Of a stretch of 64,000 bases of DNA, positions 1-61,650 are shown piece after piece; within the stretch, counting starts at the first letter, position 1; every line of letters starts with the position of its first letter. The position numbers were made by a program, and so were the translations under genes. The DNA is from Cliona cf. orientalis. Its lineage: Eukaryota > Porifera > Demospongiae > Clionaida > Clionaidae. The DNA lies in the NCBI GenBank assembly GCA_963930775.1, contig OZ005705.1:1364001-1428000 (forward strand), written 5' to 3'. Under the pieces are notes generated by a model. That model ran no database searches. It was not told the DNA's origin and saw only the letters and a list, made by a program, of their open reading frames with translations.

Positions 1-359
1 AAACAGTGTGGCAACTTGAGTATTGCTGGAGTATTAAACTTTTTTTGTGGAGAGAAGCACAGCCACACTGCTGGTGAGACCGGAATCATTCCTTTAGGAA
101 GGACAAACTCTGATCCAACGCCAGGACCAAAAGGAGCAAAAGCTACTTCAACTGTTGGATTTTGGAAGTCCAAAACCTCTTCAGGCAACTGAAGATGTGC
201 ATCTACGTCTGGAAATGGAAGGGAAAGGTTGTTGTGATTATTGATGGGAATCACTTGTCTTTTTATGAGAATTCCTTCACTGCATAGTTGCATTCCTAGC
301 AGATATTCATGAGCCTTGCAAAGCTGATCATTTTTATACTGTATTGATGGATGAGCTGC
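1..359 (-). other. Open exon at left edge, weakly ZU5-like
   Basis: On the minus strand this stretch is open for ~118 codons, from an acceptor (gaatgcag, ending at 360) to the window edge. A second AG at about 329 would allow a phase-0 join to the exon ending at AAAGAG (about 780) of the upstream propeller gene. The peptide contains LPKGMIPVSPAVWLCF and later FNTPAILKLPHC. This resembles the end of ZU5-like modules, where an ISP-x-V/W stretch precedes a K-P-x-x-L-x-L/I-PHC strand. The resemblance is weak and the domain is cut off. It is most simply the continuation of the neighbouring gene, because no other upstream coding exon lies between 360 and 734. Confidence 0.4.
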
Positions 360-3300
360 ATTCAAGTATAGTGACATTGATAAAATGTAAATAATAAGTT
401 GCAAAAAATAATACAATTTTGAATAACTATGAGATAGAATGGCCCTGACATGTGGACAACTTAATATGTTTACAATGTGAAAGTTGTAAACTGAACATTG
501 AATGCTGTAAAGTTGTCCACAGACAGGTATCTATTCAGCTACTGCACCTGAGAACTATAAATGTACTTTTGGTGTCTTGTGCATTGCTAAGCTAATGATG
601 TACTTAACTGACCATTCCAAGCTTTGATAAGTCCATTTTTGTATGCCACATAAATACATGTACAGTCTATCTCTGTAGCAATCGCCACCACTGATGATGC
701 TACACTCTTTAGTTGAAATCATATTATATATGATTAAAAATAAAAACTAGCTACTATAATATAGGAATTATTATAGCCGTGCACCTCTTTGCTTTCAAGT
801 TGGCCTTGTATTGTAAGATTATTAGTGGATAGAATCATCACTTTTCCACCAGTTGTTCCAACCAGTATCACTCCTTTTGCACAGTTCATACATGTTACAT
901 CTTCAGCTACAGTCACATGGTACCCAAATAATGATAAATATTTGTGATCAGGTACTGGTATGCGGTACCTAATGTGATGGAGTGGACAGTTTTTCCCATT
1001 TTCTTGTTGATTAGAGATACTGCTTTCTTGTTACCTGACACAATGTACCTGCAGCATTTCAAACAATAATTTAGGCTACTTAGTGTATGGTTTCTTACAT
1101 TCCATTGACATTGACAATGAGCGGTGAGTAATTGCTGATCTCTTGACCTTCATTCAACTCCAATGATATGGTCTCCAGTGAGAAAGAGGAGTTTGAAGTC
1201 TTCCAATCTACAGTGCCCAATTTCAAGCAGCCATCCTGTTTACTCACTGCAGTCATCCAAGTGTGAGTGGGGTGGTTGGATGCTGTCAAACTGTGAATAA
1301 CAATAACTCATAGAATAATAAAATCCTTATGTAGTGATTTCACTGATTAAATTTACCTCAATATGGTTCCATCATCTAAGGTGATACAAGACTCAGGCTT
1401 TGTAACAACTTGGGTATCTACCGATGGTGGAGCCCAGATATCAATTACATTACCACCAATCTTTGCACTCGCTAAACGACCATCTTCTCCGAGGAAAGTT
1501 ACAAGATATTGGGAGTTAGGTGACTACACAAAACAAGAGTATATGCATTATCTGTGAGCATAAAGTGCTAAAAGTACCTGAAGACGATCTTTCCCTTTGG
1601 CATAAAGTATTCTTTTGGGATCAGCCCCTGGTTTTAGTTTGATTAGCTGCACCACTGATGAACCTACTGCAATGAAATCATTCCAGCTATCAAGTGAGAC
1701 CACTTTCCCGGCGATTTTCAAGCTTATTTTCAAAGTCAAGTTTGCAGTGGCTGTATCCCATACTTGTAGCTATGTGTATTGCAATTATTAGGAGCCACTC
1801 ATAAAAATCAGAATTTTAATACCATTCCATTCACTCCAAATATCAATAAGTTTTGATACAACAGTAGTGTACTTGGGTGTTGGGGAAGAGTCAAGGAGAA
1901 TGCGGGAATCAACATGTCGTAGGTTACAGTTGACACACCCTGAAATCGTATTAAAGAACATCATTCCACAGTTGGAAATGTATGTAACTAAACCTAATGA
2001 CCTGATCAACGTGCATGGTTTCTTTTTTCCCCTCAGCTTGTGTACCTTCTACAGATATGATCATGAAGTAGACTTAGTGAAATTCATTCATGCATTGGAT
2101 AATTTACCTTGGTATTTTCTGACATTCCTTCCTATTCCTTCATCTTCCATCTCTTCAAATTCATCTGATAAGATATCTGTTATGTCACTGTCTAAATCTG
2201 TGCCATAGATTATTAAATTTGATTACAAGCACATAAGGAGCTAGTGTTTCAGTTACCAACAGATGGTAGTTGCTGTCTTTTAGCTCCTGCTTTTGAGTGT
2301 TGGTTCATATCACTGATTCCACTTTCAGTAGTACCTAAATTAACATTATATACAACACGAGTGACATCCTAGCTCATGATCAGGATGTATAGCATTTACT
2401 TGCTCTTGATCTTCTTACTGGATTTGTAACACGATCGTCAAAATTAACTGGCTCCCTGTGAATCAGTATTGGAGATAGGCAGTCTGGCTCTATTCTGTAG
2501 TTAGCATAATTATATTATATATTGTGCCAAGAGATCCCTAGTTTGTACATTAGCTGCTTACAATGATGAATGTTTGGATAAACCAGAACTACAAGATGAA
2601 CTATGTGTTATTGAACTTGTCAATGAACCGTTATCACTTTTCAAAGTATCATCAGACTTGGTTGAGATACCAGAGTCTTTTCTGGTTAGGGTAGTGACAC
2701 TTTGACATCCTGGTACATCCTTTCTACTTTCATTGCAACAGCTCCACTGGCCAGTAGTTTTTGATCCATATGCTCCGAAGTGATAGCGCTCAAGCATTTT
2801 GTTACCTCTTTCACCAGCAACTAAGTTTATTGGTTTATATTATATAGGCTAAACTTATTAAGGCTTAAGTTTCTCTATATATAGAGGTATATTGCCACCC
2901 ACCAAAATCAATGCCCTCACCTTGCAAGAAGGCTTCTTTCCATTTATCCCTTGCAGTCTTTGTTGGAGCAATAAGATAGAGTACCTCAGTTTCATCCCCA
3001 ATCTGCATGTATGAAAGTTTAATATCCAGTCTTAAACCCAAAAGAAAAGTAGCTAATCATTCCTAGACCAGTGGCTGCTCTGTTACATAAATTGTACCAA
3101 GGCGAGAATGTGGCTCTGAAATGAAGCAAGCTATGGCTATATTTACCTGAAAATAAACATCAGGAGATGCTAATGATCCTCTCTTAAATGCTCTTGGATC
3201 TGTATTGGCGACAAGTTTGATCCTTGAGGCTTGGAACGTTCCCCTGGCCTTGCTCTGCATGATTATGGCTACAATGAGCTATCACTCTAGTGGCTAGACT

Positions 3301-11309: not shown

Positions 11310-14300
11310 ATGGCCTACAGCAGAGCAGGTGGGTTTAATTAAATGAGTGAGGTAGTGCGTGCAATTGCTAACGTGTGTGTGTTGGTTTAGTTCCGTGGCT
11401 TCTTGTACCCTCTTAGCACTCATTAACTGGCCTGCCACTAAACAATCGAGCTAGGGGGTACTCATAATTTGCTGGGTGTCTTGTGTCCTTGTGTCTGGTT
11501 TGAGATAATACTTGCTGATGGGTGATCGGCACACAAATGATTGATCCACTTTAATAGAGATGTTGATCTCTTGTAGTAATGCTTGTGATACGATGGGTCA
11601 CACCTGTTTAGGAGTAGCAGCACAGATGAAGTATGGGGCACATTATATAGTGACCATCCCTTGGCAGGACACTTGAACACTCCTACCCAGAATTGGGATA
11701 ATTTCATGCATATTTATTTAATACGTAAAGCTGTACGATGATTGCAGTTTATATTAGACTAGTTGTATACTGTAGATCCCTAGGGTGTCCCAACAGAAAT
11801 GTTTCGTTCTTATCAGTGGACTTTTGCTCTTGTGCATACAGTGCTTAGCGTAATCCCAGTGCAAACACTCGCTCCATAGCATAACAATGTTTTACATTTG
11901 TGAGAAATTTGCTGAATAAGCTACGCTGTGCAAGTATGGGGGCGTTGATTGGAATTGTTGTTGTCAGAGTGTGCCTGGTGTCTATTTTCCTTCTCAAAAC
12001 AGTTGAAGTTGCCTGTTGGTATGACAGAGAGTCAAACACACCATGCAATCACCTCGTTGCTGTTGTACACTGGATATTATAATCAGCAAAAAATATCAGA
12101 TAAGTAGTGTCAGGAGTAGATAAGGGGATATTCCTGGTTAGGTGTAGTGTACACATGTTATAATAAGTGGCAGCTGCAATTTTCAGTATAAGTAATGTGG
12201 GGGAGGGCACATGCACTGTATATAATTGTGGAGCTCCAGAGCTTCTATTCAAAAGACGTGGTTTTGAAGGTAGTAGCTATAAGATTCTGTTTCATGACTT
12301 TATCAGCAGTACGTACATATTGCATACCATGCGGAGTATGTTATGTCCATGTTTGTCTGTACTCCTTATCCACACATCTACCAACCCCATAGGCCATGCA
12401 GTCCAGGTCAGTGGCCTGACTGTTGCTCAGCTGTTTGCTACTATATATGGTCAATGCTGGGCGGTATATATAAATAGCACAGTAGTTCATGTAGCTACAT
12501 GCATGTATATGGCATCTACGAGTGCATTTTGGTCTATCATAACAGTAGGACAATTGGTGGACGTAAAAGCTTTATAAACTGACTAAAGTGGTTTGCTAAG
12601 ATAGCCGTCAAACAACAGCTGTATGTATTAGTTGCATTACATGGAGCTCGTGTGGTACAGACTCACTTTTATGGTGGTTTTTCTCACTCTCTCTTCATGC
12701 AGCATGTTATGGCCATGCACACGTACACTTAGTCACTTACTCATAGACACCCCGATTACTCGCTGTACGGTAGCCGATATCAGACAAAGATTCAACACAC
12801 ACAACTAATCAACGGCATGATGATATAGCACCCACTGATTAAAAATTTATATTTCAACTCATGAAAATAGGCTAATTTGAAAACGCTATAATATAGGACA
12901 AATGCATGAATACTGTGGCGCTGTATGGTATTATGTGCACCAGTCAGTGTATTGTGGCGGTGATGTAAAGAACGACCAGCCATTCTCCTGTATTGTTGGG
13001 GAGTGTGTTGGGTTGTCATTGAACACTGGCTACAGTGGCTTTGTCACTGGTCACTCTAGACCCCCTTTTAGTCCACAATATACAATAATGTACATGTAGC
13101 AGCTTCCTATACATGTATAATTATGTATATATACACACTGTGGTGGTTGTGTCAGTACTTATTAGTGTATAGTGTGGTTATGTGTTGAGTGATTCAGTTT
13201 TCTCTCTCTCCCTCCCTCCCTTTCTCTCTGTCTCTCTCTTGCTTCCCCTCTCCCTCCCTTCTTCCCCCCCCCCCTCTCTCTTTCCTGTTTCTCCCCCTCT
13301 CCCTCCCTCCTTCCCTCTCTCTCTCTCTTTCCTGTTTCTCCCCCCCCCCCCCTCCCTCTCTCTTACACACTTATTAGCATTCGCTGATGGTAGCACTAGG
13401 GTGGAGTATGATCACATCTTTAAGGTCATTCTCATTGGTGACAATGGAGTTGGGAAATCAAGCTTCATCCGCAGGTAAGGTGCCCGTGTATGTGCATAAT
13501 GCAAGTACAACTTGTGTTCCATTTTGTGGTTAATATACCTGTGGTCCACTATTAATACCGCTGTAAATGGTAATAATTATGGCTGGTATTACATTGTTGT
13601 GGTGTCAGCAAATAGGTCAGGATTGATGCACATCACATGACCACTATGTAGCTAAAGGATGACAGTTTATAGAAGGTCATCTCCCAGATTTGATATTATA
13701 TATATAGCCAGGAGCCCTAGTAGTGCTAGCCAATACAGCCAGCAGTTGTATACTAGACCTCATGTTGAGCCATGGACTCTGTACTGAAGTCTGCCTATAT
13801 GGTAGCTGTGTAGCCAAGAACGTGATTGGTAAAGGGTCATTAACTTGTTGTGTGCATACCCCACATTATACATTTGCTGGGTTAGAATTTTACCGACGTT
13901 CATCTCAGAATGGCTCTAGATCATGCTGAATTTTTTTGTCGTAGATTTACAACATAATTATCTTCATAACCACGTGCATAAATCTACCGCCTAGACATTA
14001 ATGATGCTGTATTACTCTATAGATTTTGTGAAGGTAACTTTGTTGGTGAGATGGAGAGCACTATCGGAGTGGACTTCTACCTCAGCGAGATTGACGTCGA
14101 CGGCAAAAAGATAAAGGTTCTATATAACTCATGCTATAGCAACAAGATTAACAGCTAACACTGATGACTTTTTGTGTTGGTTTGTATGCTTGTAGGTTAA
14201 GATTTGGGACACAGCGGGGTCAGAGAAGTACATGTCCATATCAGCGGTGTACTACCGGAAGGCGGATGGGGTAATCCTCGTGTTTGACGTCACAAAACCA

Positions 14301-14823
14301 AGATCGTTCACGAACATCGAGACTATCTGGATGAATGCAGTAGAAGAACCAGATAGGTAAAATAGTTTGAAGGGCTGAGATATTTAATAATAACCCATAA
14401 ATATTGGGTTTTTAATTTCCAGTGGTTGTCCAGAGGCAGTGAAGTTATTAGTGGGGAATAAGTGCGACCTCCCGGCTGAAGTCGACCTCCAACAGGCAAA
14501 AGTATGCTATAATAGCAAACATCATTGATTTTATACTTAAATTTATCGATGTCTATAACGTATAAGGTTGACTGAAAATAATATTATTGCAGAGATATGC
14601 TGATCTGCACGATATGGAGTTCGTAGAAGCAAGTGCAAAGAAGAACACGAACATACAAGAGGCGTTTGCCAAGCTAGCCAAGGAGATTTGCGAGGTCAAA
14701 GCGCAGCAACAACCAACAACCATTACTCCGCACGAAGCAGATCTAACTCCTAGCTTCACCCTCGGACAAAATACCATACCACTCCACGATGACGATCAGC
14801 AAGGAAGCTCATGTAGCTGCTAG
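11310..14823 (+). CDS. Rab-like small GTPase with Ser at the catalytic Gln position
   Basis: Six exons in frame: 11310-11328, 13378-13474, 14023-14116, 14196-14356, 14423-14501, 14593-14823; 226 aa. Rab proteins are GTP-switched regulators of vesicle traffic. G-boxes are clear: GDNGVGKS (27-34), Thr in STIGVDF (52), WDTAGSEKY (75-83), NKCD, and SAK. The C-terminus is SCSC, a CxC geranylgeranylation signal. The RabF-like stretch TIGVDF and the residues after switch II (YYRKADGVILVFDVT) place it with Rabs, perhaps nearest RASEF/Rab44-type. Residue 79 is Ser where most Rabs have the catalytic Gln. Rab24 also has Ser there, but this protein keeps a normal NKxD box, so I do not call it Rab24. Intron 1 is 2.05 kb and ends in a long CT tract. 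Confidence 0.9.
11329..13377 (+). other. Intron 1 of the Rab-like gene
   Basis: This 2.05-kb intron has no convincing exon. Small open frames on both strands show no recognisable protein. Its last ~180 bases (13199-13370) are almost pure pyrimidine and lead straight into the acceptor at 13377, so the tract probably doubles as the splice-site polypyrimidine tract. Confidence 0.7.
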
Positions 14824-15355: not shown

Positions 15356-17157
15356 ATGTGTCAACTAATACTACTACTGGTGATGTTAGGCAGCTGTCTG
15401 TCTGCTTGCAGTGGTGAGGCAGGACGTGTGCACAGTAGCCATGTACCATGGTCAAGCAATCTCGAAGATCTGCCAGCAAAAGAATCGTGGGTGAAACTGT
15501 ACAGAAAGTTAGAGAACACTCTGTTGAACAGTCCAGAATTACTAGACAATCTTCGAGAGAAATTCTTTCCATCGCGGAGTCGCTACCGAGCCAAAGATCC
15601 TGCCAGCATTGATGGTATTCAGGTGGATTTATTACCGACATGTGTTACGTTCAGTTTTGGAATGGACGACTTTCACGGAAATAATATAAGTTTAAACGGC
15701 TCAACTTCCAAGTGCATGAATTTCAGATGGACCAACTCAAGATTGTTGAACATAATGCCAGCAGACCAGCTGAGTGCACTAGATCCCTTCTGGACGAAAA
15801 TACTTTACTCTGGTATTGTTTCATCACGAATCAATGGACAACCAATAGTGATCACCCTAGACGTTGATATCGATACACATTACTACATGACTCTAACTGA
15901 AGAAGACATTGTAATCTCCATGGCAATTCTCTTAAGTTGGGTAAGTAATAGATAAAAAAGTGGCTGGTCCGTAGTCCCAGTATGCATACATGCATAGATT
16001 GCCCTATGGTCCCAGCAACCCATAATGTACAATGGTCACCGATGCCTATAAGGCCCCAAATCACTGGCTGCATGACATTGTAATTGAGAGGTGCATGGTT
16101 GTGGTTTGTGGGGATAATGTAGGGAGCTTTAGCTTGAACTAAGGAGCTGTAATACAAGGTTTGACTGTATACCCTTTTACAGAGCAAAAATTTGGCCTTG
16201 GACAGGACTGGAGAGCACTGGAGTCAGGAGAACCAAGGATATGTGGTACCCTGGTACGACTACTACACAACTGATAATCACTATCAGGAAGACTCTCTAA
16301 CACTCAAACGCATTATTTTCTACCTAAATTTCTTCTTTGTAGCAATGAATGCATTTATCGTCATAGTCTTGGCTCGATACAGCACCAAGATACTCTCAAC
16401 CATTGGTCAACTCTGTGCTACTCCAAGCTTCACATCAAGCATTCACAAAGGTGCATTATGTACGGCTACACTATTAGTGATACTGTATCTCACTACAGTA
16501 TTCGTTTACGACTGCGTAAGTGGTGACTTTCAGCTTCACAATACTAATCCCATCTTCCGTTACAAGATCAAAGCTTGCATAGCTAGTCTCTGTATTCGGA
16601 TGGGTATTCTCATAATCGCTGGCATAGTACATGCTGGAGTTGCAGTGCACACCACTCTGATAGCCCATCGCCAGTCTGGGAAAGTTTTTAAGTACCAGTT
16701 CCTTGACACAATAGTTTTATGGGGTACTTTTATGTTTTGTCAGCTATGGATTGGAGTATTTTCAATTCCAATAGTGACATTTCTTGCAATATCACCGACC
16801 ATTACACTGTTCCACCTTTGCATGGCTGTGCTGATCTACATCCACCTCACGGCACCCATTGCCTACATGATACACTTCTTCAACAACAGGAACCGTATGG
16901 GACTCAAGTGCATACGGGTCACACTTTTTTACACCGCATACTATCTGGCGACATCGGCAGTGACCATCAGTGCATCAGTGATCTATTGTGAGATAATGGT
17001 AAGGGGCGCAGTCCCTCATGGGGCCCAGGGCTTCTTCCTCTCCTTCATTCCCCCACTAATACTCTCAATGATGCTTTGGCTCATCAAAACTAAGCTTTTT
17101 ACAAACAAGAAAGTCCCTTACACAAGTATAGGACAAAAAATAACCTACATGGTGTGA
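15356..17157 (+). CDS. Receptor-like protein A: signal peptide, novel ectodomain, seven predicted TM helices
   Basis: Family not recognised. Two exons, 15356-15940 and 16183-17157, phase-0 join, 519 aa. I chose the ATG at 15356 because it opens directly into a signal peptide (MCQLILLLVMLGSCLSACSG); an upstream in-frame ATG at 15260 would place 32 odd residues before it. Exon 1 is the ectodomain, with N-glycosylation sites NNIS and NGST and family motifs DGIQV, CVTF, NFRWTNSRLLN and ILYSGIV. Exon 2 starts near the membrane (ENQGYVVPWYDYY) and holds seven hydrophobic segments, among them FFVAMNAFIVIVLA, LCTATLLVILYLTTVFVY, FCQLWIGVFSIP and FFLSFIPPLILSMMLWLI. The tail is short. It is the most divergent of three tandem copies. 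Receptor function is inferred only from topology. Confidence 0.85.
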
Positions 17158-17992
17158 ACTGTGAAGAAGTTAGTTGCACTATTATGAACAATGTGTATAA
17201 TGAAAAACTAGAATATAGCTTATACTATAATATTATGACAACATTATTAAGTACTTTGTATGTATACTTGCCATCTGAGAACAAGTTGAAGATGTAAGGA
17301 TGTCTTTCACTAAACTGGTGTAGTGAGCTCCAGGAATCCAACCTGTAGGTGTGGAGCAGGGGTGTACATGTAGTACACATAAATTTACATTCGAGCTGTT
17401 AATAATATTATATGTCTTACCATGCAATTAATTATTCTAACTTGTAGTGCATGATATTATTGCTGGGAATGTAGCTATGGACATTGCACACTGTATAATA
17501 TGTATTCGAATAAATACAGTATTCCAGGGCCAGTTTGTGTGAAATTGATGCCACATACTCGGACGTGACTGTTTTTGCAAAGAAACAGCCATTAATAGTT
17601 GTGGGCTGATCAGGTATGCAATGCTTATAACACAACAACTCCAATTTCCATCAACAAAAAGTGAAAATAAATACAAAACTTCCAAGTTTGAGGTTCCCAT
17701 GCAGAATCAATATGCATCATCATAATAGTACTTACTACTTAGGAGAGCTACATATAGTAGACCTTGTATACAAGACGTTGTTGCTAAAGCACGCAGGGAC
17801 TACATAAATCAATTTGGGATTTTTCTTTTTCAGTACTTGTTTTGAAATTGGAACATCACCGGGTCCCATGCTATAGACCATTCTAGAAGCGGCTACATAT
17901 ATACATACAGCTACACTGGGCACGCATATAAACAGCTGCAACAGAACCAATGAAGTATTGTAACACTCCGACACAACAGACTAGACGCAGCA
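17158..17992. other. Spacer between receptor-like genes A and B
   Basis: About 830 bases without a supported exon. A catataaaca stretch near 17926 lies about 65 bases upstream of the gene B ATG and may be a TATA-like element. No tRNA or repeat recognised. Confidence 0.4.
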
Positions 17993-19661
17993 ATGAGGAT
18001 CTTAATACTTGCAGTTGCAAACTCCATTCTCCTACTAATGCTTTCAAAGCCAACGAGCCAAGAAATTGAATGCTCGGAAACACTCTCGGACTATACTGCC
18101 CACAAGCTGATCAAAGATGCCATTGTACTCGATCCCGAGCAGCTGTTTAAGATGAGAAATGCTTTCTTCCCGACCAATAATGATCGCTACTGGCAGGTGG
18201 ATGGGGTACAGGTCCTTCCAATAAGTGTCTGCGTATCAATGGCAAACTCAACCTCACACTTGGAGCACAAAGAAGAGGAAGATATCAATGATCTAGAAGA
18301 GACCAGAAGGTGCTGGTCTTTTCATTGGACAAACTCGCGCTTGTTTAACCTCATATCTGGGGAAATTCTGCTTGCCATGGACATTGTGACAACGAAGTAC
18401 ATATATCCTGGAATACTAGGCACTGCAAATTTGCAACTTGATTTGAAAATCAACCAGAACACAAGCATGCTAGGATGTCTGTTGATTTCTGAAAGGATGG
18501 AGAGGGCTGTAACAAATCTTCTAACTTGGGTATGCTCTTGTATATTGTCAACTGTATAATTATTTATACAATGTGTGTCTTTTTCTTTTACAATAGGCGA
18601 AGCTTTATGCAATGGAGAATTCACTACCCCCAACAAAATGGGAGTCGAGCTACCAAGGCTACGTAGCCAAGAGCTACACTTATTTCAGCACAGACTCCTA
18701 TTCCAACAATCTATCTAGAAATAGGTGGAAAATCCGACTGACTGAGAATCTTCTTTGGGCCACATTCATAGTCATCAATCTTCTCATTCCCATTCTCTTC
18801 ATAAGCAAAGGAAAGCAGTTGGTAACCTGTGACGTCAACCACCACTTTCCTTACAGAGCAGCGGCCACAATAATAACCACCTTCAATTTTCTCTACTCAC
18901 TAGTGACACTCGGTACGCTTTTTAGCCCTACCAAAAAAGGATATCCAAGTGTTCTTGATTGCTTCATTGCAGAAAATAGGCATCGTTGCATCATTCCCAA
19001 AGAGGCAATCTTTTACGATGTCTCCATAGGAATTCTTGTCACCAAAGTAACAATTCTTCCCGTTGCAGTATTGATCGAACTGATTGTAGCAATATACTAC
19101 GTCAGAAAGAGGAGGGTGTCTAGTACATGTAGGTCGGAGTTTCTAGGTGTTCAAACAATAAAAAATGTTGGTTGCTTTATCATGAGAGTTTTCACGCTAT
19201 GGCAAATACTAATCTTCATACAGATAATGATAGGATCTGTGAGCATCCCCTTTCTCATACTGTTGCTCGTAAGCCCGGCTCAGTCTATCTTGCTAAGTGT
19301 TGAACTGATCGCATTCATAATCTCAATCTCAGGTTGTCTTCTTGGCATACCATTACCATCAAGCTGTAAATTTAATGTCTATTCCTGCACGAAGCTGTGG
19401 TTTTCGTACGTCGAAAATCTTCTCGTAATGGCTGTCATATTCCTTGCCTCAACCACTTACTGCCTAATCGTTAAAGAAGGAATAAGTATGGGTAGTGTCA
19501 AGGTGTACGTTTTGTCACTGGCTCCTACCATCCCAATTTCCATCTTCATCTGGATGATCCAAGAAAGAATTCGCAGTAAGAGGGGCAAGAGAAGTAACAG
19601 ACAGCTAACTACAGTATTGCTACAGAGGAAGGAAAGCTTTTCCATGGATGAAGAGATATAG
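17993..19661 (+). CDS. Receptor-like protein B: signal peptide, novel ectodomain, seven predicted TM helices
   Basis: Paralogue of the flanking genes A and C; no known family recognised. Exons 17993-18529 and 18597-19661 join in phase 0 at the same position as in A and C (after a Leu-x-Trp); 533 aa. It has a signal peptide (MRILILAVANSILLLMLS) and an ectodomain with RYWQVDGVQV, SVCVSM, SFHWTNSRLFNLIS and YIYPGILG. Near the membrane are AKLYAMEN and SSYQGYVAKSY. Seven hydrophobic helices follow, including LLWATFIVINLLIPILFI, ILPVAVLIELIVAIYYV and LILLLVSPAQSILLSV. Basic loops (RKRR after helix 3, RSKRGKR after helix 7) fit an N-out, C-in arrangement. The cytoplasmic tail ends with LLQRKESFSMDEEI, shared with C. 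Role unknown; topology is GPCR-like but no DRY or NPxxY motif is seen. Confidence 0.87.
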
Positions 19662-20198
19662 TACAGTGGATTTGTCAACTAGTTCAGAAGATGATGTATA
19701 ATAGGAAGTGTAGTAAAATTTGGTATCACAACTGTTACAGCTGTTAGGAATTGAAATAGCTTCATTTCTATAAACTATTCATTACACATAGTAAGTTCAT
19801 ATCAATCTTTTTAATAGCAATTAGCATTATCAATGTTTTATGTAGTGAGAAATTTGTAAAATGTAAGATTTATTAATTCTTGTTATATTATTACTGCTTA
19901 TGGTCAGAAACAGCTCGTGTCCATATTAATTAGAATCTGATGGAAAGTTTCAACAACAATGCATATTTGCATAGTGCCTCATTGTATACACATAAAAAGT
20001 GAGGGTAAATCATTAGCTTTTGAAAATCCCCATATCATTAGCAAAAATAACCATTATGCTTACATAAAATAGCAAAAAAAACCTATGGTACTCCCCAAAC
20101 AGTAATATCACACTGCATGTTATTCATGTACGTAATACTGTATACGCAAGGAGTCAAGTGCAGCTACTGTTAGCGAATAATTCCTCTTTATCAGAAAG
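19662..20198. other. Spacer between receptor-like genes B and C
   Basis: About 540 bases, AT-rich, without a supported exon. It presumably holds the 3' end of B and the promoter of C. No distinct motif found. Confidence 0.4.
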
Positions 20199-21956
20199 AT
20201 GAAGCAACTGGTGACACTTTTTATTCTTTTGGTACGATTACTAGTGCAGCCAGCCAATGCTATATACAGTGACTCTATCTACTTCACCTATAACCAGATA
20301 GAAAATGCGGTTCTTAGCGACCCAAAGCTGGTCTTTAAGTTGAGAGAAGCGTTCCACCCAGTAATCACCGAGCGACGTTGGCAAGTAGACGGCGTCCAAG
20401 TTGTATCCATTAAGCTGTGTGTCAACTTCAATCCTGCACATGAGGCAGACATATGCGGAACCAACGAAATACTCAGTCCCAACACCAAATACTGCAAGTG
20501 GTTTCAATGGACAAACTCGTACCTTTTTAATCTAATATCCCCCGAGCTGCTACTAATAATGGATCCTGTATTCTATTCAGTTATCTATTCAGGGATAGTA
20601 AGATCAGTGCACAATTCAGTATATCTGACTGACATTGAAGTCAACTCAAGCTGCATACCATCGTTCGATGATTTTCTATCAGCATCAGCACTATTTCTTA
20701 GCTGGGTAATAACCTAGAAATCCAATCTATTGCAACACATACACTGTATACATGAATGACTTGGCTTATATCCCAGCTGCATTACATTTAATAATTCTCT
20801 TATATACTCTATGCCTTCATTATTCCTCCCCCCCCCCCCTCTCTCCCTCTCTCCTTCCCTCCCTCCTTACTCTCTGTAGAGTAAGCTCTATGCTATTGAG
20901 AACTCAGGAAAGCCGACGAGATGGGACCCCAAGTACCAAGGCTACATTGCAAAATGGTACACATACTATGAAGCTGATCCACAGTTTCGAGGATTAACGA
21001 AACACCATCAAATACTGTATACACAGTTGGGGCTATGGGTAAGTTTTGTGCTTCTTAACATTCTGATTCCAGTTGCCTTCATCAAAAGAGGAGGATGGAT
21101 ATATCAACTTATATCTACGTCGAGGAGTAAATACATACTCAGTCGGATATTTCCTGCTATGCCCATATTCACTGCTATATATTTCGGTGTGATGATTGGC
21201 TCCCATATTAAACACCAACTGCAATCACACCCGATAATTCATAATTGTCACAATATACGAAACTATTCAGACGCAGAAATGCTACCAGTGATATTTTGCC
21301 GTGGCATACTAGGCATGCTGATCACCAAGGTTATCTTCCTACCTGCAGCAATACTGACAGAACTAATCACTGCAGTAGTATATATTATCACAAGAATGAC
21401 ATCACTACGCTCCAGAAGTTGTTGTACCAATATCGGACAAGTGCTTGTACTTTGGCAGCTTTTTGTCCTTGTGCAGCTTATACTCGGTCTCATCACCATT
21501 CCCCTACTAATCATGATACTCATCAGTCCAGCCCAGAGCATACTGGTTGCAGGAGTAACCTGCACACCATTTCTTCTGTTTGCTTGCCTCTTGATTCTGA
21601 CACCATGCACCAAATCTTGCAAATCCACACTCAAACTTCACTGGAGTACACTGCTGGAGAACACGGTTGCTGCCTGTCTTATCACTGTTGCCTTCCTGAC
21701 TTACTACAGTATCGTTAGCTATGGAGCAAGCATGAACAGCATTAAAGGCTACATCCTCTCACTGATTCCAACAGTGCCCATTTCAATATTTGTGTGGATG
21801 CTCAAAAGAAAATTTACTAGCAAAAATGCCAAGCATAATACTAGGACCAGAGAAAGAAAGATGAAGGGTACGCTTCAACAGAGAAGAGCAAGCTTGTCAA
21901 CAGAAGAGGAGATGGTTTTCATGAGCGATACCTCAGCAGATGATGCAAGTGACTAA
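20199..21956 (+). CDS. Receptor-like protein C: signal peptide, novel ectodomain, seven predicted TM helices
   Basis: Third tandem paralogue. Exons 20199-20705 and 20880-21956, phase-0 join after LSW, 527 aa. Signal peptide MKQLVTLFILLVRLLVQPANA. The ectodomain has RRWQVDGVQV, KLCVNF, WFQWTNSYLFNLIS, IYSGIVRS and an NSS glycosylation site. Exon 2 begins SKLYAIEN, then PKYQGYIAKWYTYY, then seven helices (e.g. LWVSFVLLNILIPVAFI, VIFLPAAILTELITAVVYI, LILGLITIPLLIMILISPAQ). The tail is the longest and ends TLQQRRASLSTEEEMVF then DTSADDASD, a basic-Ser-acidic pattern shared with B. The intron ends in a CT tract (20827-20876) just before the acceptor. B and C are closer to each other than to A. Confidence 0.87.
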
Positions 21957-25767: not shown

Positions 25768-26606
25768 CTTGAGGCTCAATGGAAGCACGTGGCTGGAGGT
25801 GTGGCACGGGCGGAGTTCAGTTATGCGCATGCGCACACGGGCACAAATGCGCAAATTGGAGAACAAGCTTTGACGTCACGCATTGTGTGGGCGGTAACTA
25901 TAGCGATATGACCAATGAGTGAGCAGGTTTTTTCCTGTTGCCATGCCAAGGCGCTAGGCAGGATGCGTTGTAATGCATGCTAAAATGCGCTGTATCATTG
26001 CAGTGCGGACGTGCCTGATGTTGTGACTCGGTGTGTTGCATCAAAGGGACCAAGTCAGGGAACTCTAGCTCCGTCTGTTAGAAGTTGTATCGTCGCGCCT
26101 CACACAAACTCGGGCCGCCTTCGCACGCTAAACTAAACTTCTGGATTCGGAGTGTCAGAGTTCTTCGGCAAGCACGGTACCCTGCGACTATACATACGAT
26201 CCAGCTCCCCACACCTACCCTGCAAGCCAGCGCCAGCGCCAGGAGTCTCACACTTGAACTTCATCATCTGCACTTCACTCAAGTACTTATTCGATATCTA
26301 GTGACTGAAAGGAGCCAGCATTTGGACCACGAGGTAGGCTATTGCGCGTATAGCTGCATTCGTGGTGGCGAGTACTGAAGACTGTGCGATTGTGCGAGAG
26401 AGAGAAAAGGATAGCATTGTAACAGTATCATCAGGTTATTTGCAAGGGATGAGCTTTCTATCATGTTCAGGGGAAAAACACCGGCTTGAATGAAAATTGA
26501 TTTACTCTAGATTTGTCCTGAGAGGTGCTAACCATCATTCATAGTCTTATTAATTTGTTGTGTATTTTATCTTCTACTTTTCCCACACTCCAATAGAGCA
26601 GACATC
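25768..26606. promoter_or_regulatory. Divergent UBE3D/TENT5 promoter with NRF1-like, CRE and CCAAT motifs
   Basis: Just upstream of the UBE3D ATG lie a 12-base palindrome TGCGCATGCGCA (25824-25835), the NRF1 consensus; a perfect CRE TGACGTCA (25871-25878); and a CCAAT box (25912-25916). GC content is higher than around it. The TENT5 side continues with a probable non-coding first exon ending at a GAG|GTAGGC donor near 26331 and an acceptor (ccaatag) just before 26600. Motif identities are from known consensus sequences; activity is inferred. Confidence 0.6.
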
Positions 26607-28001
26607 ATGGAAGAGACGCATTCCCTCGACTACGACCAAGTGGAGAAACTATACAGAGTCCTCACGGAGCCTATCGACATATACCCTGCAGACAACTTTC
26701 CAACGTTGAGCATTGCCCCTGCCAGCTTTGTCAAGGTGGTACGGACACGCCTCGTTCAGAAGGGCATTCAGATCAGAGACATTCGAATGAATGGCAGTGC
26801 AGCTAGCTACTGCTTGTGTAAAGACAGCGACGGCCAACCCCCGGTCCGTTACAATGACATTGACCTCATATTTGGGGTTTCCATCGAGCGTGAAAATGAT
26901 TTCCACGTGATCAAGGAAGAGGTTTTGACATCCCTCTTGGAGTTCTTCCCAGAAGAGGTAACAAAGAAGAATATCGGGTCTCAGTTGCTCGAAGAGACCT
27001 ACATGAAGAAGATGGTACTAGTGTCTGACGCAAACAACAGATGGTCCCTCTTTTCGCTTGGCTGTCAGCCCACTGATCATATCAGCATTGAACTAAAATT
27101 TGTCAGCGAGATCAAGAGAAAATTCGAGTTCACCGTCGACTCTTTTCAGATCATTCTCGATTCCTACTTTGATTTTGGCCAGTGTGCCGAGGAGAGCCCA
27201 GTCTCCATCACCCCCACCTTTTTCCCCTCCGTCCAAGCTATCTCAGTGTACAGCGACTACTCAGAGGCGCTAGAACACTTGAACAATCGTCTCATTCACA
27301 CTGTTGCCCCTGAGGAAATTAGGGGTGGAGGCCTGTTGAAATATTGCAGCCTATTGGTCAATGGCTATCAGCCAGCCGACAAGGAAAAAATGATGAGCCT
27401 CGAGCCGTACATGTGTAGCAGATTCTTTATTGATTTTTCTTCAGCCGAGATGCAGCACAGCAAGATTATGAAATGTGCCGAGACGAGATTTCTCCAACGA
27501 GGAGATGTCTTGGGATGTTTGAGTTTCTTGGATGTTCTCTACAACACTGTGTCCTCTCGAGCAAGATGTCTAATGGAGAGTCAGAAATACGAGACCATTT
27601 CTGTGATTTCGAGAATTCGGCATATGATTGTCTTTCCGTATTCCTACTACTACCCATTCCCACAGCCTTGTGTGCCAATCTCTGGCTTTGGTGGTGGGGT
27701 CACGGGTGGTTCCGCCTCGTCCTACTACCACCACAACCATCACTCACAGCAAAGTGGCCCGTCCAACGAGTACCACTATCACCACCACCATCATCACTAT
27801 GGCAACCAAGAGTTGTCCAGAACTTCCCCTCCCCCTCCTCCTCCCCACTGGCAACACCATCGAAGACCAAATGGCTATCGTCGAAACTACCATAATCATC
27901 ACCACTCTCGTTCTCGTTCTAGCTCTCCTCGCCAAGATGAGCCTTGGATGTCTCAAAATTCCTTAACTGCAACTGCTCAGTCAGCAGAAGTGAAGTCATA
28001 G
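26607..28001 (+). CDS. TENT5: Terminal nucleotidyltransferase 5 (FAM46-type non-canonical poly(A) polymerase)
   Basis: TENT5 proteins add poly(A) to mRNA 3' ends, often mRNAs of secreted proteins. One coding exon, 464 aa. The nucleotidyltransferase core is complete: MNGSAAS (Gly63-Ser64), catalytic NDIDLIF (Asp84 and Asp86) and the third acidic residue in IELKF (Glu162). Other family blocks are VDSFQIILDSYFDF, EEIRGGGLLKYCSLLV and EPYMCSRFFIDF. Vertebrates have four copies, and this single gene cannot be assigned to one of them. The C-terminal ~120 residues are unlike vertebrate TENT5: a Gly/Ser stretch, then His-rich (YHYHHHHHHYG), a Pro6 run, and an Arg/Ser-rich end. ATG 26607 follows an acceptor by a few bases, implying an upstream non-coding exon. 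Confidence 0.93.
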   Translation: MEETHSLDYDQVEKLYRVLTEPIDIYPADNFPTLSIAPASFVKVVRTRLVQKGIQIRDIRMNGSAASYCLCKDSDGQPPVRYNDIDLIFGVSIERENDFHVIKEEVLTSLLEFFPEEVTKKNIGSQLLEETYMKKMVLVSDANNRWSLFSLGCQPTDHISIELKFVSEIKRKFEFTVDSFQIILDSYFDFGQCAEESPVSITPTFFPSVQAISVYSDYSEALEHLNNRLIHTVAPEEIRGGGLLKYCSLLVNGYQPADKEKMMSLEPYMCSRFFIDFSSAEMQHSKIMKCAETRFLQRGDVLGCLSFLDVLYNTVSSRARCLMESQKYETISVISRIRHMIVFPYSYYYPFPQPCVPISGFGGGVTGGSASSYYHHNHHSQQSGPSNEYHYHHHHHHYGNQELSRTSPPPPPPHWQHHRRPNGYRRNYHNHHHSRSRSSSPRQDEPWMSQNSLTATAQSAEVKS

Positions 28002-43400: not shown

Positions 43401-43930
43401 TCATGGGTACATGCATGATGTGGACAAATACATTACAACAAGTAAATATGCACTGCTCACTTGAGACTGGACATTGCTCAATTTCTTATTGGCAAACTCG
43501 TACTCATTCAGGGGAACCTGGGGTGCATGTGTGTGTGTGTGTGTGTGAGAGAGAGAAAAACAGTAAAATCTTTCTGGCATAAGCAAGGGTATACTTTCTC
43601 TCCCCCTCCCTCCCTCTCCCTCATTACCTTGGCATGCTTTAGAAACTTCAAAAAGCCGAGCTCCTCTGGTAACAGGAAGAGGAGGGCATGACCACGCCCA
43701 CCTGCCCGAGCCGTACGTCCCACTCGATGAATGTATTCTTTGGGGTCGTCAGGCGGATCATACTGGACAATCCAGTCCACTTCTGGTATGTCCAGTCCTC
43801 TTGCGGCTACATCCGTACAGCAGAGGATGCCATGCTCAGCTTGACAAAACTCAAGAAATGATGAAGTTCTTTTTTGCTGTTTTTGGCGACCCTAGTGAAG
43901 AATAAAAGAGAGTGAGAGTAAACAAGGGCA

Positions 43931-43980
<50 letters not shown>

Positions 43981-46856
43981 GAGGGAGAGGGAGAGGGAGA
44001 GAGAGGATGAGAAAGAGGAAGAGAGAGAATAACAGTCAATCCTAAAACAAAACAGCAAACAACAAATGGAACTAAAATTCCAAATCTTACAGATCGACAG
44101 CACAATGTCGTAAATGATTTCACTAGCTGAAGTCCTAATGGGAAACAAATTGATTCTGGAGCAAAGTGGCGTCACTCAGTCTAGCTACTCTCTGTTATTG
44201 CATACTTGGAAGTATCTCCATGGCAACCTTTTAAAGAGTTGTTACGACTAACACACCCATCGAACCAAGTCCAGCAAAATAATGGCTTCATAAAATCAAA
44301 TTGAACAGTAAACCCACACAAGGTGCCAGGACACCATAGTTATGCAAGCAACACTTATTGAGTGATTAATAAAGGATTATCGACTGCTGATCCCTACCAG
44401 AACAAACTACTGAACCAAACAAACTACATGTACCCCTGGATCCACCACTGGTCTGACCCCACCAGCACAAACTACTGAACACCCCTGGATCCACCACTGA
44501 TTCTCAGAATACTTACATAATATTATATAAAACTAGTTTGCACTCACGTGTATGTCCATTACAGGTATGTCAATGTAGTTGAGCAGCTCGGAGTGGAATT
44601 TGACTGAGTTGCACGAGGAAAAGAAAACCATCACTTTCTTGTTGAGGTTCTTCTTGAGGAACGTGAACAACAGAAGGAACCGCAGCTCCGAGGCACACAC
44701 AACATAGCCCTGCACGAAAGGAGTGGTAGCATGTAAAATGATCGACCCTTACCCATTTGCCACTCATATTATGTATTGCGAAATTGACGACCCTTACCAT
44801 TTAAAACATTCAACTAGCCACTAATTTGAACTCACACTATCATCAAGCACATGTTGCGCTTTTGGGGCTGACGACCATTACCACATACAGTACTGTCATA
44901 CCCCAGGTTGCTAACACCTATATAGCACATTTCTCTCAGATCTGGCTCACTAGAGCTGACCAATGGCTAACCTGTTCCAGTCCTTCAACCGTCGACGTGT
45001 CCTTGTGATCGTCCACCCCTACATAAAGAGGCGCCTTCTTCAGTGACACACGGGCGAGATCTTCCACGTTCCGAGTCTGGGTCGCTGAAAACAAGACTGT
45101 CTGACGCTTCTCTGCAAAAAAAGAGAGAGAACAAAACAATATTAGCAAATAATTACGTGGTATTTTCTTCAGCAAAAAATGACGAGACACACTTGGTAGA
45201 AGTTTGATAATCTGTTTCATTTCTTCCTCAAATCCAATCTCCAAAATTCTGTCTGCTTCGTCGATGATAAGACACTGAAGGTTGCTGTACTGAAAGCCTT
45301 TCGTGTTCTGCCGAAGAAAAGAACCACTATTAGGAAAAGGGTCGGCACACCACCACGCTTCAATATTCTTAACACTACTCCCCAGCGCAGCGTACTCTAC
45401 AAAAGGCCCTCTCCCCACTTAAAACCCACCTGCTTTAGGTTGAATCGATCACTTCCTCTCCACCCCCCTCGTTCTCGTCCCAATATACCCACCTGTAAGT
45501 GATCCAGAAGTCTTCCCGGAGTGGCAACAAGCAGGTTCACCCCCTTCTGCAGTTTCTCCGCCTCCACCCTGCGGTTGGCCCCGCCCATAATGATCCCGTG
45601 TGAATGGTGGTGATAGGCGAGGAGTTCGGTCACGACACCGTACGTCTGGAGGGAGAGCTCTCGAGTCGGGGAGATGATTATGACTCCAGTACCTACAAGA
45701 GTAATAATTATTGAGAAGTGTACCAGAGGGTCTCCTTTCCAAAACAATCAGATAAAAAGAAAACGAGAGAGCTTTTGGTAAGAGCAGAAGAGTGCTAAAA
45801 TGATGATGTACACAATGTCATACCATTTCTTGGCATGAAATTGAGTTTGTAGAGGAGCTCCACGGCTGGAACAAGGAAAGCAAGAGTCTTCCCACTGCCT
45901 GTGCGAGCAGCACCCATCAAATCCCTAAAATTAAAATTAATGAGGAGACACACTGAATATTATCATATTGTAGGGCTAGGGATAGTCTGGAGAATCAAAG
46001 CAAAACTCCCTTCTGCATGCTGATGATACAGTGCTGCAATTACGTGGCAGAGGGGTTGTGGTCTGATTCTCGAGTGATCGATACTATGGTAGTGGCCACC
46101 CAGCTACACGTGGCTTGTCTCTAATTGGTACTCACCTTCCCTCGAGGAGAGGTCTGATGGATCGGTACTGTATCTCCATCATTTCTGTGAATCCCATCTC
46201 CCCGATGGCCTTGAGCGTCTTCTCTGACACCACATCGCCGAGAGACGAGAACAATCTGTCGTTGCCACCGACAACAGCTGTAGCTCCGCCTCCCGTCGAC
46301 ACAGCACCAGAGGTAGTGGCACCAGATGAAACAACTGGACCTTCATTCTTTGCTTCTGTATCTATAATATAGAAAAAAATTGGCAGGGAATTAAAGCCGG
46401 CAAAAAATTTTGCCAATGAGAGCAAATAGCAAACTCGATACATGTACCTTCAGTGTTGTCATGACTATCTGAAGTTTCTTTCGTGTCTCCAGTTTCATCG
46501 ATATCATCAGTTGATTCTAGCTCCTCATCAACACTCTCAAAGTCGCTACTGCTATTAACCCCTTCTTCACTACATTTTTGACGCTTAGTTCTCTGGGGCA
46601 TCGAATTGAGATCTCTACGCAATCTCTTCTTTTTTGACGAATCTTTCACTTCAGACGAAGTGTCATCTTCAGCAGCAACAGAACAAGCCTTTTCTTCAAC
46701 TTCTAAAAATAATTTTACCATACAATTTAGCACACATAAAGGTTTGGCGGGTTCCTTACTAGTAGAAAGCTCCTTTAGAGTATCTTTCATTCTCGCTCTC
46801 GCCTTCTTCCTCATCCTTCTGAGCTTTCTAACGTTCCTATCTCTCAGAGTCGGCAT
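31247..46856 (-). CDS. DDX18: DEAD-box RNA helicase DDX18 (Has1 orthologue)
   Basis: DDX18/Has1 is a nucleolar ATP-dependent RNA helicase of 60S ribosome biogenesis. Twelve exons join in frame: 46856-46760, 46702-46448, 46361-46136, 45924-45824, 45692-45493, 45307-45193, 45111-44972, 44709-44548, 43891-43628, 43517-43461, 41580-41403, 31401-31247; 649 aa (human about 670). Motifs in order: Q region ([19 protein letters not shown]), [28 protein letters not shown] in [22 protein letters not shown], and HRVGRTAR. The family-specific tail includes YFLHKS-like [11 protein letters not shown] and FGFSNPP. The basic C-terminus ([18 protein letters not shown]) matches the DDX18 ending and lies 10.0 kb away from the previous exon. 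The N-terminus is Lys/Arg- then Asp/Glu/Ser-rich. Head-to-head with ILVBL. Confidence 0.95.
35393..35574 (+). mobile_element. MITE-like element, copy 2 (full length)
   Basis: About 182 bases bounded by inverted ends: CACTGGAACCCCTCTATT on the left and TATAGAGGGATTCCACTG on the right. It aligns through its length with the minus strand of 24301-24485. No coding capacity. Confidence 0.72.
37386..37466. repeat. (GA)n microsatellite
   Basis: About 40 near-perfect GA units inside the large DDX18 intron. It produces spurious Arg-Glu and Ser-Leu open frames. Confidence 0.95.
38263..38289. repeat. Poly-G run of about 27 bases
   Basis: An uninterrupted G tract flanked by short repeated agccacccc units (38300-38420). 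A second G run of about 20 lies near 37897-37916. Length is uncertain because homopolymers are prone to sequencing error. Confidence 0.85.
41581..43460 (-). other. DDX18 intron 10
   Basis: This 1.9-kb intron has C-runs at about 42777-42790 and 43201-43218 and scattered GT-rich sequence. No supported exon. Confidence 0.65.
43925..44025. repeat. (GA)n tract in DDX18 intron 8
   Basis: About 100 bases of GA-rich repeat. On the DDX18 strand it is CT-rich and ends about 30 bases before the exon-9 acceptor at 43892, so it can serve as an extended polypyrimidine tract. Confidence 0.85.
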
Positions 46857-47085
46857 CTTGACTTGCTATCTACACGTGGATTCCGTAAATTAACCCCTTC
46901 TCCATTTTAACGGAAAAAGTAAAAATAGGAACCTAAGTCACATGCACATTCCAGCTGCATATCGCACGCATGCAGGGCAATTCAAATCATCTTCCAACGT
47001 TGCCTCGAATTTCGTCTGCGTATTCAAACAAAGACAGCTGGAACGTCAGTATTCCTATCAGGTTCGTTTTGCGCGACAAAGAATC
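46857..47085. promoter_or_regulatory. Bidirectional promoter, DDX18 (-) and ILVBL (+)
   Basis: Only 229 bases separate the two start codons. It includes an E-box-like CACGTG near 46874 and a cgcacgcatgcag stretch near 46968 that is a partial NRF1-like match. Motif function is inferred. Confidence 0.55.
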
Positions 47086-60388: not shown

Positions 60389-61650
60389 CTCCTTCCCCTC
60401 TTCCCTTCCCTATAACTATGTAGGCAGGTTTTACAAACATAACAGCTGATAAAAACACACAAACAAGTCCTCTTGTTAGATGACTTCAGAGACCCACTGC
60501 TGAAACAGGTTCCTAAACTAGTCAGCTACTTGAACTATAGTATAATTTTAATTGAAAGCAAAATAATGGACAGTAGAAGAGAATCCCTTGTGCCTAAAGA
60601 TCATGCAAAGAAGAAATACTTTGTTGGGTTTCATCCATATGTGATCTAAAAGTCCCAACGAGGAATTACCCAAAATCCATACTCGGACAACAGGGCATAA
60701 AAACAGGATACCAATTATTAATAATTACCAAACTGACAACATGCACCTTGCTCAGCAGTGTAACAATTATAATGTGGGGCTATTACTAGTACATGCACAT
60801 AGCACACAGCACATAACATCGAGGACAGACATGTGTCAACAAATATTTTCCTGTAGCATAGTTTTTGAGTTATGGATGCCACAAGCTTTCGGTGACAAAC
60901 AAGCCAATAGTAAACAAACATATCAAACCATGCATGTACGCATCTAGATCAGGCAGCGCTGGGCCGGGCCAGGCAGGGATATTATGCAGATGCCCCAAAA
61001 TAATATTTCCCTAGCTTAACTTTTTACAATGCTTCTACATAGTATGGTAGTTTAATAATCACACTGCTGTGCAGTGGTTAGGGCTTAGGATTGATAATCA
61101 TAGTGATAAGCACTACGATTCCCCAGCTATAGCGCTAAGCAGCGCAGCTCAGGCGCTAACGAGCTGTCAATAGCTCCACACAGATACGTCATGCACATGT
61201 TGCTCATCACCGACCGGCGGCCGTATACCACAACAAGCGAGCTATCCTTGTACCAACGTATAAAGTGCAACGGCGCCGCGATGGTGTAATAATAATAATA
61301 TTATTGTGAAGGTAAGGTCACAGATTATGGATCAAGTTACCACAAATTATGAATCATCCCAGGCCGCAAATGCTAGTTGATAGCTACCTCGCTGCGCACA
61401 CGCGCAGTAAGGTCCTTGTACTACTAACGTTCACTCACCTCAAAATAGATAACCTCTCTGCGCCTCCAAAATAGACATCTCAAGCATTCACGCTGTATAA
61501 AAAAACACGTCTGATCTAGCTCGGGCCTCGAACTAGTAGCGAAAATTAGTGGGCGCGGTTCTCGAGGGCTGTTTATTGGATCACGTGACACGAACGTAAC
61601 GCCTACGCCATATCCGGGCCGCGCGCGTGGCCAGGCACAACTAGACTGAG
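57031..61650. other. Intergenic region between the PH/coiled-coil gene and WARS2
   Basis: About 4.6 kb. It contains G-rich purine sequence near 58088-58122, a CT microsatellite at 60265-60405, and acatgtac-type palindromic repeats near 59500 and 59908-59940. The last ~100 bases before WARS2 have a TCACGTGA E-box (61581-61588) preceded by an inverted CCAAT (ATTGG, about 61575), a plausible promoter. No supported exon was found; upstream non-coding exons of the PH/coiled-coil gene could lie here. Confidence 0.55.
60265..60405. repeat. CT-rich microsatellite
   Basis: About 140 bases of TCTC/TCCC repeats. It creates a spurious Arg/Glu-rich frame on the minus strand. Confidence 0.85.

Follow-up and report, generated by a model that had tools for sequence, protein, structure and literature searches.

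Sponges have no neurons, and it is still an open question how they sense their surroundings and distinguish self from non-self. The present analysis concerns three genes, here called A, B and C, which lie head to tail on the plus strand at positions 15356-21956 of a 64,000-nucleotide stretch of DNA from the demosponge Cliona cf. orientalis (GenBank assembly GCA_963930775.1, contig OZ005705.1, positions 1,364,001 to 1,428,000), referred to below as the window. The reading that we favor, at a probability of about 50%, is that these genes encode cell-surface receptors in which an ectodomain precedes seven helices and the N-terminus lies outside, and that they come from an expanded family of such receptors.

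Several described seven-helix systems share part of this layout. The superfamily of the G-protein-coupled receptors (GPCRs; Pfam clan CL0192: 7tm_1, 7tm_2, 7tm_3, Frizzled) has the same N-out seven-helix pattern with basic inside loops as A, B and most other members of the family; in contrast to GPCRs, A-C have no Pfam match and a very short loop between helices 4 and 5, and the 23 members surveyed here for topology, motifs and tails lack both NPxxY and CWxP. Tandem expansion, as seen here, has been reported for another sponge receptor group, according to the cited portion of that study (PMC7385117).

A second likeness is to the GOST/Hi-GOLD proteins (GPR107/108, TMEM87, TMEM145 and GPR180), which in the case of Hi-GOLD was judged by description and not by sequence. 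We know of no Pfam model for Hi-GOLD; the GOLD domain is a β-sandwich, whereas the ectodomain here is tentatively modeled as a mixed α/β domain with a predicted local distance difference test score (pLDDT) of 70. In these proteins, as here, the ectodomain stands directly before the seven-helix part, as set out in the cited portion of a 2025 choanoflagellate survey (PMC12716839). The same portion lists orphan groups that include Hi-GOLD and GPRch3, plus sponge GPCR-tyrosine kinases, and section 26 of the survey describes the sponge and choanoflagellate GPCR-tyrosine kinases, reported from sponges, as having seven-helix domains without a supported clade (PMC12716839). A, B and C differ from the latter, as they end 23, 33 and 50 aa after the last helix and so carry no kinase domain.

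The insect OR/GR and 7TMIC chemoreceptors have seven helices, tandem arrays and fast evolution, with the N-terminus inside and no signal peptide. By contrast, a signal-like segment is found in A, B and C, and the charges predict an N-out orientation for 20 of the 23 members, A and B among them, being ambiguous for C. For sponges, the 2014 GPCR survey of Amphimedon retrieved its sequences by Pfam clan CL0192, as stated in the part of the paper cited here (PMC4302439).

Gene structure, homology and extent of the family

Each of the three genes has two coding exons, of which the first encodes the ectodomain and the second the seven hydrophobic helices, and the predicted proteins are 519 (A), 533 (B) and 527 aa (C) long. 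An earlier sequence-only reading of the window had proposed three genes with these same limits and lengths, with which the gene models agree, and the tandem arrangement that it described is found not just in the trio but also in further arrays elsewhere in the genome. At the end of the ectodomain, exon 1 closes in the same frame with the residues LSW (A and C) or LTW (B), and exon 2 starts with SK or AK. With protein C as the query, exon 2 of B was matched at E 3.6e-57 (39% identity) and exon 2 of A at E 2.5e-6 (26%), while their exon-1 pieces were matched at E 1.7e-20 (B) and 7.1e-16 (A). By these comparisons A, B and C are true homologues.

They are also a small part of a larger family and not an isolated group, as judged from searches of the same assembly (216.8 Mb, 149 contigs, with the window on contig 17). 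The family comprises at least 63 loci, 29 core and 34 outer, which were counted by hand with neighboring matches grouped; the figures obtained for large families are minimum values, and the outer loci include fragments. The core loci were found in searches with five core-group members, and 25 of them lie in five tandem or paired clusters. The entry to the outer group was a weak match (E 0.34) that led to a locus on contig 3 at 1.067 Mb, which scores against the family profiles at E 1e-10 for the ectodomain and 2.7e-6 for the membrane exon, compared with 0.02 and 1.2 for the best of 200 shuffles; searches from this locus and two of its relatives gave the 34 outer loci at E<0.01, and a further search yielded no additional one. 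On this evidence the family has about 60 loci and extends well beyond the trio first noted.

The homology of the more distant members was assessed with profiles. When a profile built from five membrane exons of the window and contig 13 genes was tested on 15 members left out of it, all 15 scored better than every one of the 90 controls, shuffled or reversed, the weakest member having E 0.0074 and the best control 0.23. The corresponding ectodomain profile was weaker, as it placed six of 12 held-out members above the best control and only the two of the contig 1/contig 17 pair clearly so. Profile-profile comparison is more sensitive than the single-profile hold-out, and it was controlled with shuffled columns and reversed profiles, with no unrelated seven-helix family among the controls. 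For the ectodomain, the window plus contig 13 profile scored 44 against contig 19, 54 against contig 6, 42 against the contig 1/contig 17 pair and 43 against the contig 3/contig 8 subfamily (highest control scores 18.3 for shuffled columns and 14.5 for reversed profiles); for the membrane part the corresponding scores were 76, 87, 58 and 45 (controls at most 22.8 and 21.1). In these comparisons, both domains are homologous across the window/contig 13 genes and the four other subfamilies. The group at 7.06 Mb on contig 17 is connected to the contig 3/contig 8 subfamily via the ectodomain (E 1.2e-9) but its link to the window genes is not firm (E 0.027 for the ectodomain, which is not significant, and 0.002 for the membrane part); its membership is probable, as is that of the copies at 8.58 Mb on contig 6 that were found through it.

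The intron between the ectodomain and the membrane part has the same place and phase 0 in 15 of the 16 genes examined. Twelve of the 16 have GT and AG directly at the site, and three fit after a shift of a few codons (GT one codon upstream in the contig 3 and contig 8 genes, AG a few codons upstream in c19_697); the last, c6_8536, has no settled acceptor. The two contig 13 paralogues (5.13 Mb; L018) share the intron site, and their introns are 67 bp and 1208 bp long.

In the tree, B and C are grouped with the two contig 13 genes (support 99/97), B and C not being each other's closest kin, and A joins this group at 92/91. The contig 19 and contig 6 members form another group (99/98), in which c19_684 stands beside the contig 6 copies (93/89). 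A, C3, C8 and C17_7064 are on long branches, and their placement is unsure. The tree therefore suggests that the window trio is an old array and that the contig 19 and contig 6 genes are recent copies.

Some loci deserve separate mention. Two subfamilies adjoin on contig 6 at 8.536-8.597 Mb, where the core array extends to about 8.567 Mb and copies like those at 7.06 Mb on contig 17 begin at about 8.579 Mb. A decayed copy at 5.4521 Mb on contig 1 (L034, L052, L056), remote from any array found, has in-frame stops and pieces that are 55-73% identical to a contig 19 member. Finally, L019:2262-3812 and L020:2842-4389 are a recent duplicate pair on two contigs with membrane exons that are 97% identical; their tail, which is highly charged, has about 205 residues and greatly exceeds in length the tails of the other 21 members examined.

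Topology, conserved residues and comparison with known folds

Helices were called with a simple hydropathy scan (19-residue window) and orientation with a positive-inside charge count, rather than with a dedicated topology or signal-peptide predictor. A and B have a signal-like N-terminal hydrophobic segment followed by seven helices, and the membrane exon contains exactly seven helices in 20 of the 23 members, in all of which the inside loops are richer in Lys/Arg than the outside loops, pointing to an N-out orientation. The seven-helix, N-out topology first proposed for all three proteins is accordingly found in these 20 members, A and B included. The AlphaFold model of the membrane exon of C has seven long helices (pLDDT 59, predicted template modeling score [pTM] 0.39), and that of its exon 1 is a mixed α/β domain (pLDDT 70, pTM 0.62).

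The most constant feature of the membrane part is a helix 7 motif, [LI]-S-[LIF]-x-P, in which the Ser is kept in 23 of 23 members and the Pro in 22, and a Pro after helix 4 is likewise kept in 22. Among the hallmarks initially listed for the trio, DG-x-QV, CV-x-F/M and WTNS-x-L-x-N are present as described, and three others vary: YQGY before helix 1 is NQGY in A; ISPA before helix 5 occurs only in C, with ISPT in A and VSPA in B; and the I-Y-x-GI of B (IYPGI) and C (IYSGI) is LYSGI in A. Motifs like those of the ectodomain may occur in sponge proteins. Helix 4 shows the Gln/Gly/IP pattern in the window and contig 13 genes, which have Gln and an uncharged residue at the site where the contig 19 and contig 6 relatives have a His-Arg pattern instead. 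The acidic dileucine motif [DE]xxxL[LI] occurs in eight of the 23 tails, all from contigs 13 and 19, whereas 2000 rounds of shuffling gave 1.3 on average and never more than 5; this figure overstates independence, as the member sequences are related.

No Pfam model matched A, B or C at E<=10, and the family profiles of both parts matched no chain of the Protein Data Bank (PDB) at E<=10. The original statement that the trio fits no GPCR class, channel or transporter signature is thus supported, and for A-C neither database yielded a significant profile match to a characterized family. In Pfam scans that covered 20 membrane exons and 17 ectodomains, there were only scattered weak matches to unrelated families. 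For the 20 membrane exons, no GPCR and no GOST model (Lung_7-TM_R and kin) was among the 17 weak families listed, and the ectodomain matches listed include no GOST model either. In a separate scan of seven proteins, two relatives matched PFF1_TM, the membrane domain of a vacuolar protease (L020, E 1.8e-5, 24.9 bits against a cut-off of 32.3; L019, E 6.2e-4); this match is below threshold and was regarded as noise. DUF5770 (three of 17 ectodomains, best E 8.6e-4), NTase_sub_bind (one of 17 ectodomains, E 0.001), an NCBIfam mobilome membrane protein (one of 20, E 7.6e-5) and Porin_OmpG_1_2 (one of 12, E 0.0065) were likewise set aside as noise. With exon 2 of gene C as the query, 22 pattern stretches were obtained in contigs of non-animal genomes and four in viral contigs, and a contig 19 exon gave three in the viral contigs; none was confirmed. 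In the literature covered, which left out subscription papers and preprints, no paper was recognized from its title or the start of its abstract as describing the family. To judge from these searches, no catalogued family fits convincingly.

None of the 142 matches to the kinase model PF07714 in the genome, with 119 of 2511 candidates scored, lies at a family locus. In one place examined for a possible kinase fusion, the 601 bases upstream of the kinase contain a repetitive stretch and no seven-helix part. Clusters of tyrosine-kinase-like domains occur on contigs 7, 9, 10, 12 and 17, and on contig 17 an open frame of 2925 aa has ten kinase matches in a row.

These results bear directly on the idea that the proteins are extremely diverged GPCRs, of a known class or of an orphan eukaryotic group, with a GPCR fold and G-protein coupling, which overlaps with the receptor reading and would specify it. 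The best Foldseek match for the membrane-exon model of C is indeed a GPCR; however, its E value is 0.53 with a weak model, any helical bundle could score so, and in another comparison of weak models BAR domains ranked above GPCRs. The lack of any Pfam match in A-C and of a GPCR model among the weak matches listed for the 20 members also speaks against it. Furthermore, the loop between helices 4 and 5 of A-C has only 4-8 residues in the hydropathy scan, which leaves no long second extracellular loop, and the class A motifs are missing: NPxxY and CWxP occur in 0 of 23 members and a DRY-like motif, anywhere in the protein, in four of 23, with none of the three motifs in the three window genes. 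A GPCR origin is possible but less probable than not.

Divergence of the two domains and the receptor reading

The divergence of the ectodomain and the membrane part was compared on exons trimmed to their coding limits for 17 pairs, which are not independent of each other. Synonymous change was measurable in both parts in 11 pairs; the other six, all from the window/contig 13 genes, are saturated and were compared by identity only. Of the 11 recent pairs, 10 show lower conservation in the ectodomain than in the membrane part, and in eight of the 11 the ratio of nonsynonymous to synonymous substitution rates (dN/dS) is higher for the ectodomain. The six contig 19 pairs have ectodomain values of 0.60-0.97, compared with 0.29-0.44 for the membrane part, and the faster change of the outer domain is, in these comparisons, mainly a feature of the recent contig 19 array.

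The receptor reading is favored because of the layout (a signal-like segment, a small outer domain, an N-out bundle with basic inner loops and a short tail), the tens of mostly tandem copies, and an outer domain that diverges most rapidly in recent copies. In the mechanism that we propose, a signal peptide would be followed by an extracellular recognition domain of mixed α/β structure, with about 150 residues and an exon to itself. The seven-helix domain would then pass the bound state to the basic intracellular loops and the short cytoplasmic tail. With the ectodomain exon changing faster in recent copies, tandem duplication would produce many receptors with different ligands and a conserved membrane part, and environmental, microbial or self cues are candidate ligands. 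The acidic-dileucine tails of the contig 19 and contig 13 branches may recruit clathrin adaptors, leading to endocytosis or endosomal sorting. From the predicted proteins we infer signal cleavage, surface location, ligand binding, signaling and its route, and the role of the tail motif.

Tandem copies and the faster ectodomain divergence of recent copies would also suit adhesion or allorecognition molecules, in which the ectodomains make homophilic or heterophilic contacts and the seven-helix part is an anchor. Adhesion proteins, however, usually bear repeated domains, and the ectodomain here is small and single; moreover, the near-invariant residues of the membrane part exceed the needs of an anchor. 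Such a function appears improbable.

Several observations weigh against the receptor reading, the first being that no catalogued receptor family matches, as far as the sequence comparisons go. Regarding topology, three of the 23 members are over-split in the helix scan, namely, gene C (eight segments), C13a (eight) and the member C17_7064 of the group at 7.06 Mb on contig 17 (nine). The scan gives C two surplus segments, as it divides the long helix 3 and also counts an ectodomain stretch that is barely over the threshold, and under the eight-segment parse the charge count is seven inside and eight outside, so that the N-out orientation of C is not supported by the count alone; C is read as a seven-helix protein because it aligns with B over its length. 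Concerning selection, the contig 13 pair and two of the three contig 6 pairs have the lower dN/dS in the ectodomain, and among the window/contig 13 genes the ectodomain has the lower identity in just two of six pairs, its identity being clearly higher in each of the three pairs that include A. There is no dN/dS above 1 in the 11 measurable pairs, and these values do not establish positive selection. Charges are also found within the membrane part: in helix 3, a Lys occurs in 17 of 23 members, an Arg in two more, and a Glu or Asp in 15, and helix 4 has His-Arg in 13 of 23 (the contig 19 and contig 6 members). Lastly, the dileucine motif is absent from the three window genes and could in any case indicate lysosomal residence rather than reception at the surface.

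The charges would also suit transporters or channels gated or docked by a luminal or extracellular domain, perhaps in the endolysosomal system as the acidic dileucine of the eight tails would imply, and the Pro residues of helices 4 and 7 and the sub-threshold PFF1_TM match are in line with this. However, that match is confined to two near-identical proteins among the seven scanned and extends into the charged tail, and no transporter family in Pfam matches A-C. In addition, many tandem copies with fast ectodomain change are commoner in recognition proteins. A transporter or channel is therefore unlikely, though less so than an anchored adhesion molecule.

A family without a Pfam model would escape any receptor inventory that takes Pfam models as its starting point, which the Amphimedon inventory did according to the cited part of that paper (PMC4302439). 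Should the bundle turn out to differ from that of GPCRs, one more class of seven-helix receptor would be added to those of animals. A tentative proposal, which we consider less probable than the receptor role itself, is that the family is such a new animal class, not derived from GPCRs, and that its at least 63 loci make it one among this animal's large repertoires for sensing or recognition. In either case, some 60 ectodomain-bearing seven-helix loci, mostly in tandem and with exon limits, are concrete candidates for sponge sensing.

Coordinates and other features of the window

Table 1. Gene models of A, B and C (positions in the window) and family loci of the genome (C followed by a number denotes a contig)
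Feature	Location	Strand	Loci	Description
Gene A exon 1	15356-15940	+		signal-like segment and ectodomain, aa 1-195
Gene A intron	15941-16182	+		GT-AG, phase 0, 242 bp
Gene A exon 2	16183-17157	+		juxtamembrane stretch, seven helices ~16312-17085, tail 23 aa, stop
Gene B exon 1	17993-18529	+		signal-like segment and ectodomain, aa 1-179
Gene B intron	18530-18596	+		GT-AG, phase 0, 67 bp
Gene B exon 2	18597-19661	+		seven helices ~18750-19559, basic tail 33 aa, stop
Gene C exon 1	20199-20705	+		signal-like segment and ectodomain, aa 1-169
Gene C intron	20706-20879	+		GT-AG, phase 0, 174 bp
Gene C exon 2	20880-21956	+		helices ~21027-21803, tail 50 aa, stop
Core loci	C17, window		3	
Core loci	C13:5.13 Mb		2	
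Core loci	C1:6.21 Mb and C17:5.50 Mb			recent pair
Core loci	C19:0.684-0.704 Mb		8	array, 20 kb
Core loci	C6:8.536-8.567 Mb		9	array
Core loci	C6:9.905-9.917 Mb		3	
Core locus	C1:15.15 Mb		1	
Core locus	C1:5.45 Mb			broken copy with stops
Outer loci	C3		6	
Outer loci	C8:7.08-7.18 Mb		10	
Outer loci	C17:7.05-7.065 Mb		6	
Outer loci	C6:8.58-8.60 Mb		4	
Outer loci	C1:10.48-10.49 Mb		2	
Outer loci	C10		2	
Outer locus	C6:2.83 Mb		1	
Outer locus	C6:10.13 Mb		1	
Outer locus	C14		1	
Outer locus	C15:2.92 Mb		1	

Other genes are apparent in the window. The frames at window 3-530 (-) and L023:2-1861 (+) resemble ZU5-type domains by eye; the former matched no Pfam family at E<=0.01. A long single-exon frame at 26532-27998 (+) matches the Pfam nucleotidyltransferase model NTP_transf_7 (E 2.1e-113), and we take it to be TENT5-like. 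The single open frame at 46894-49005 (+), of 704 aa, has all three thiamine-pyrophosphate enzyme domains of Pfam and is presumably acetolactate-synthase-like. Furthermore, pieces resembling a Ras/Rab GTPase gene (13173-14820, +), a DEAD-box helicase gene (43511-46449, -) and a class I W/Y tRNA synthetase gene (61645-63816, +) are present, in each of which one piece matched Pfam.

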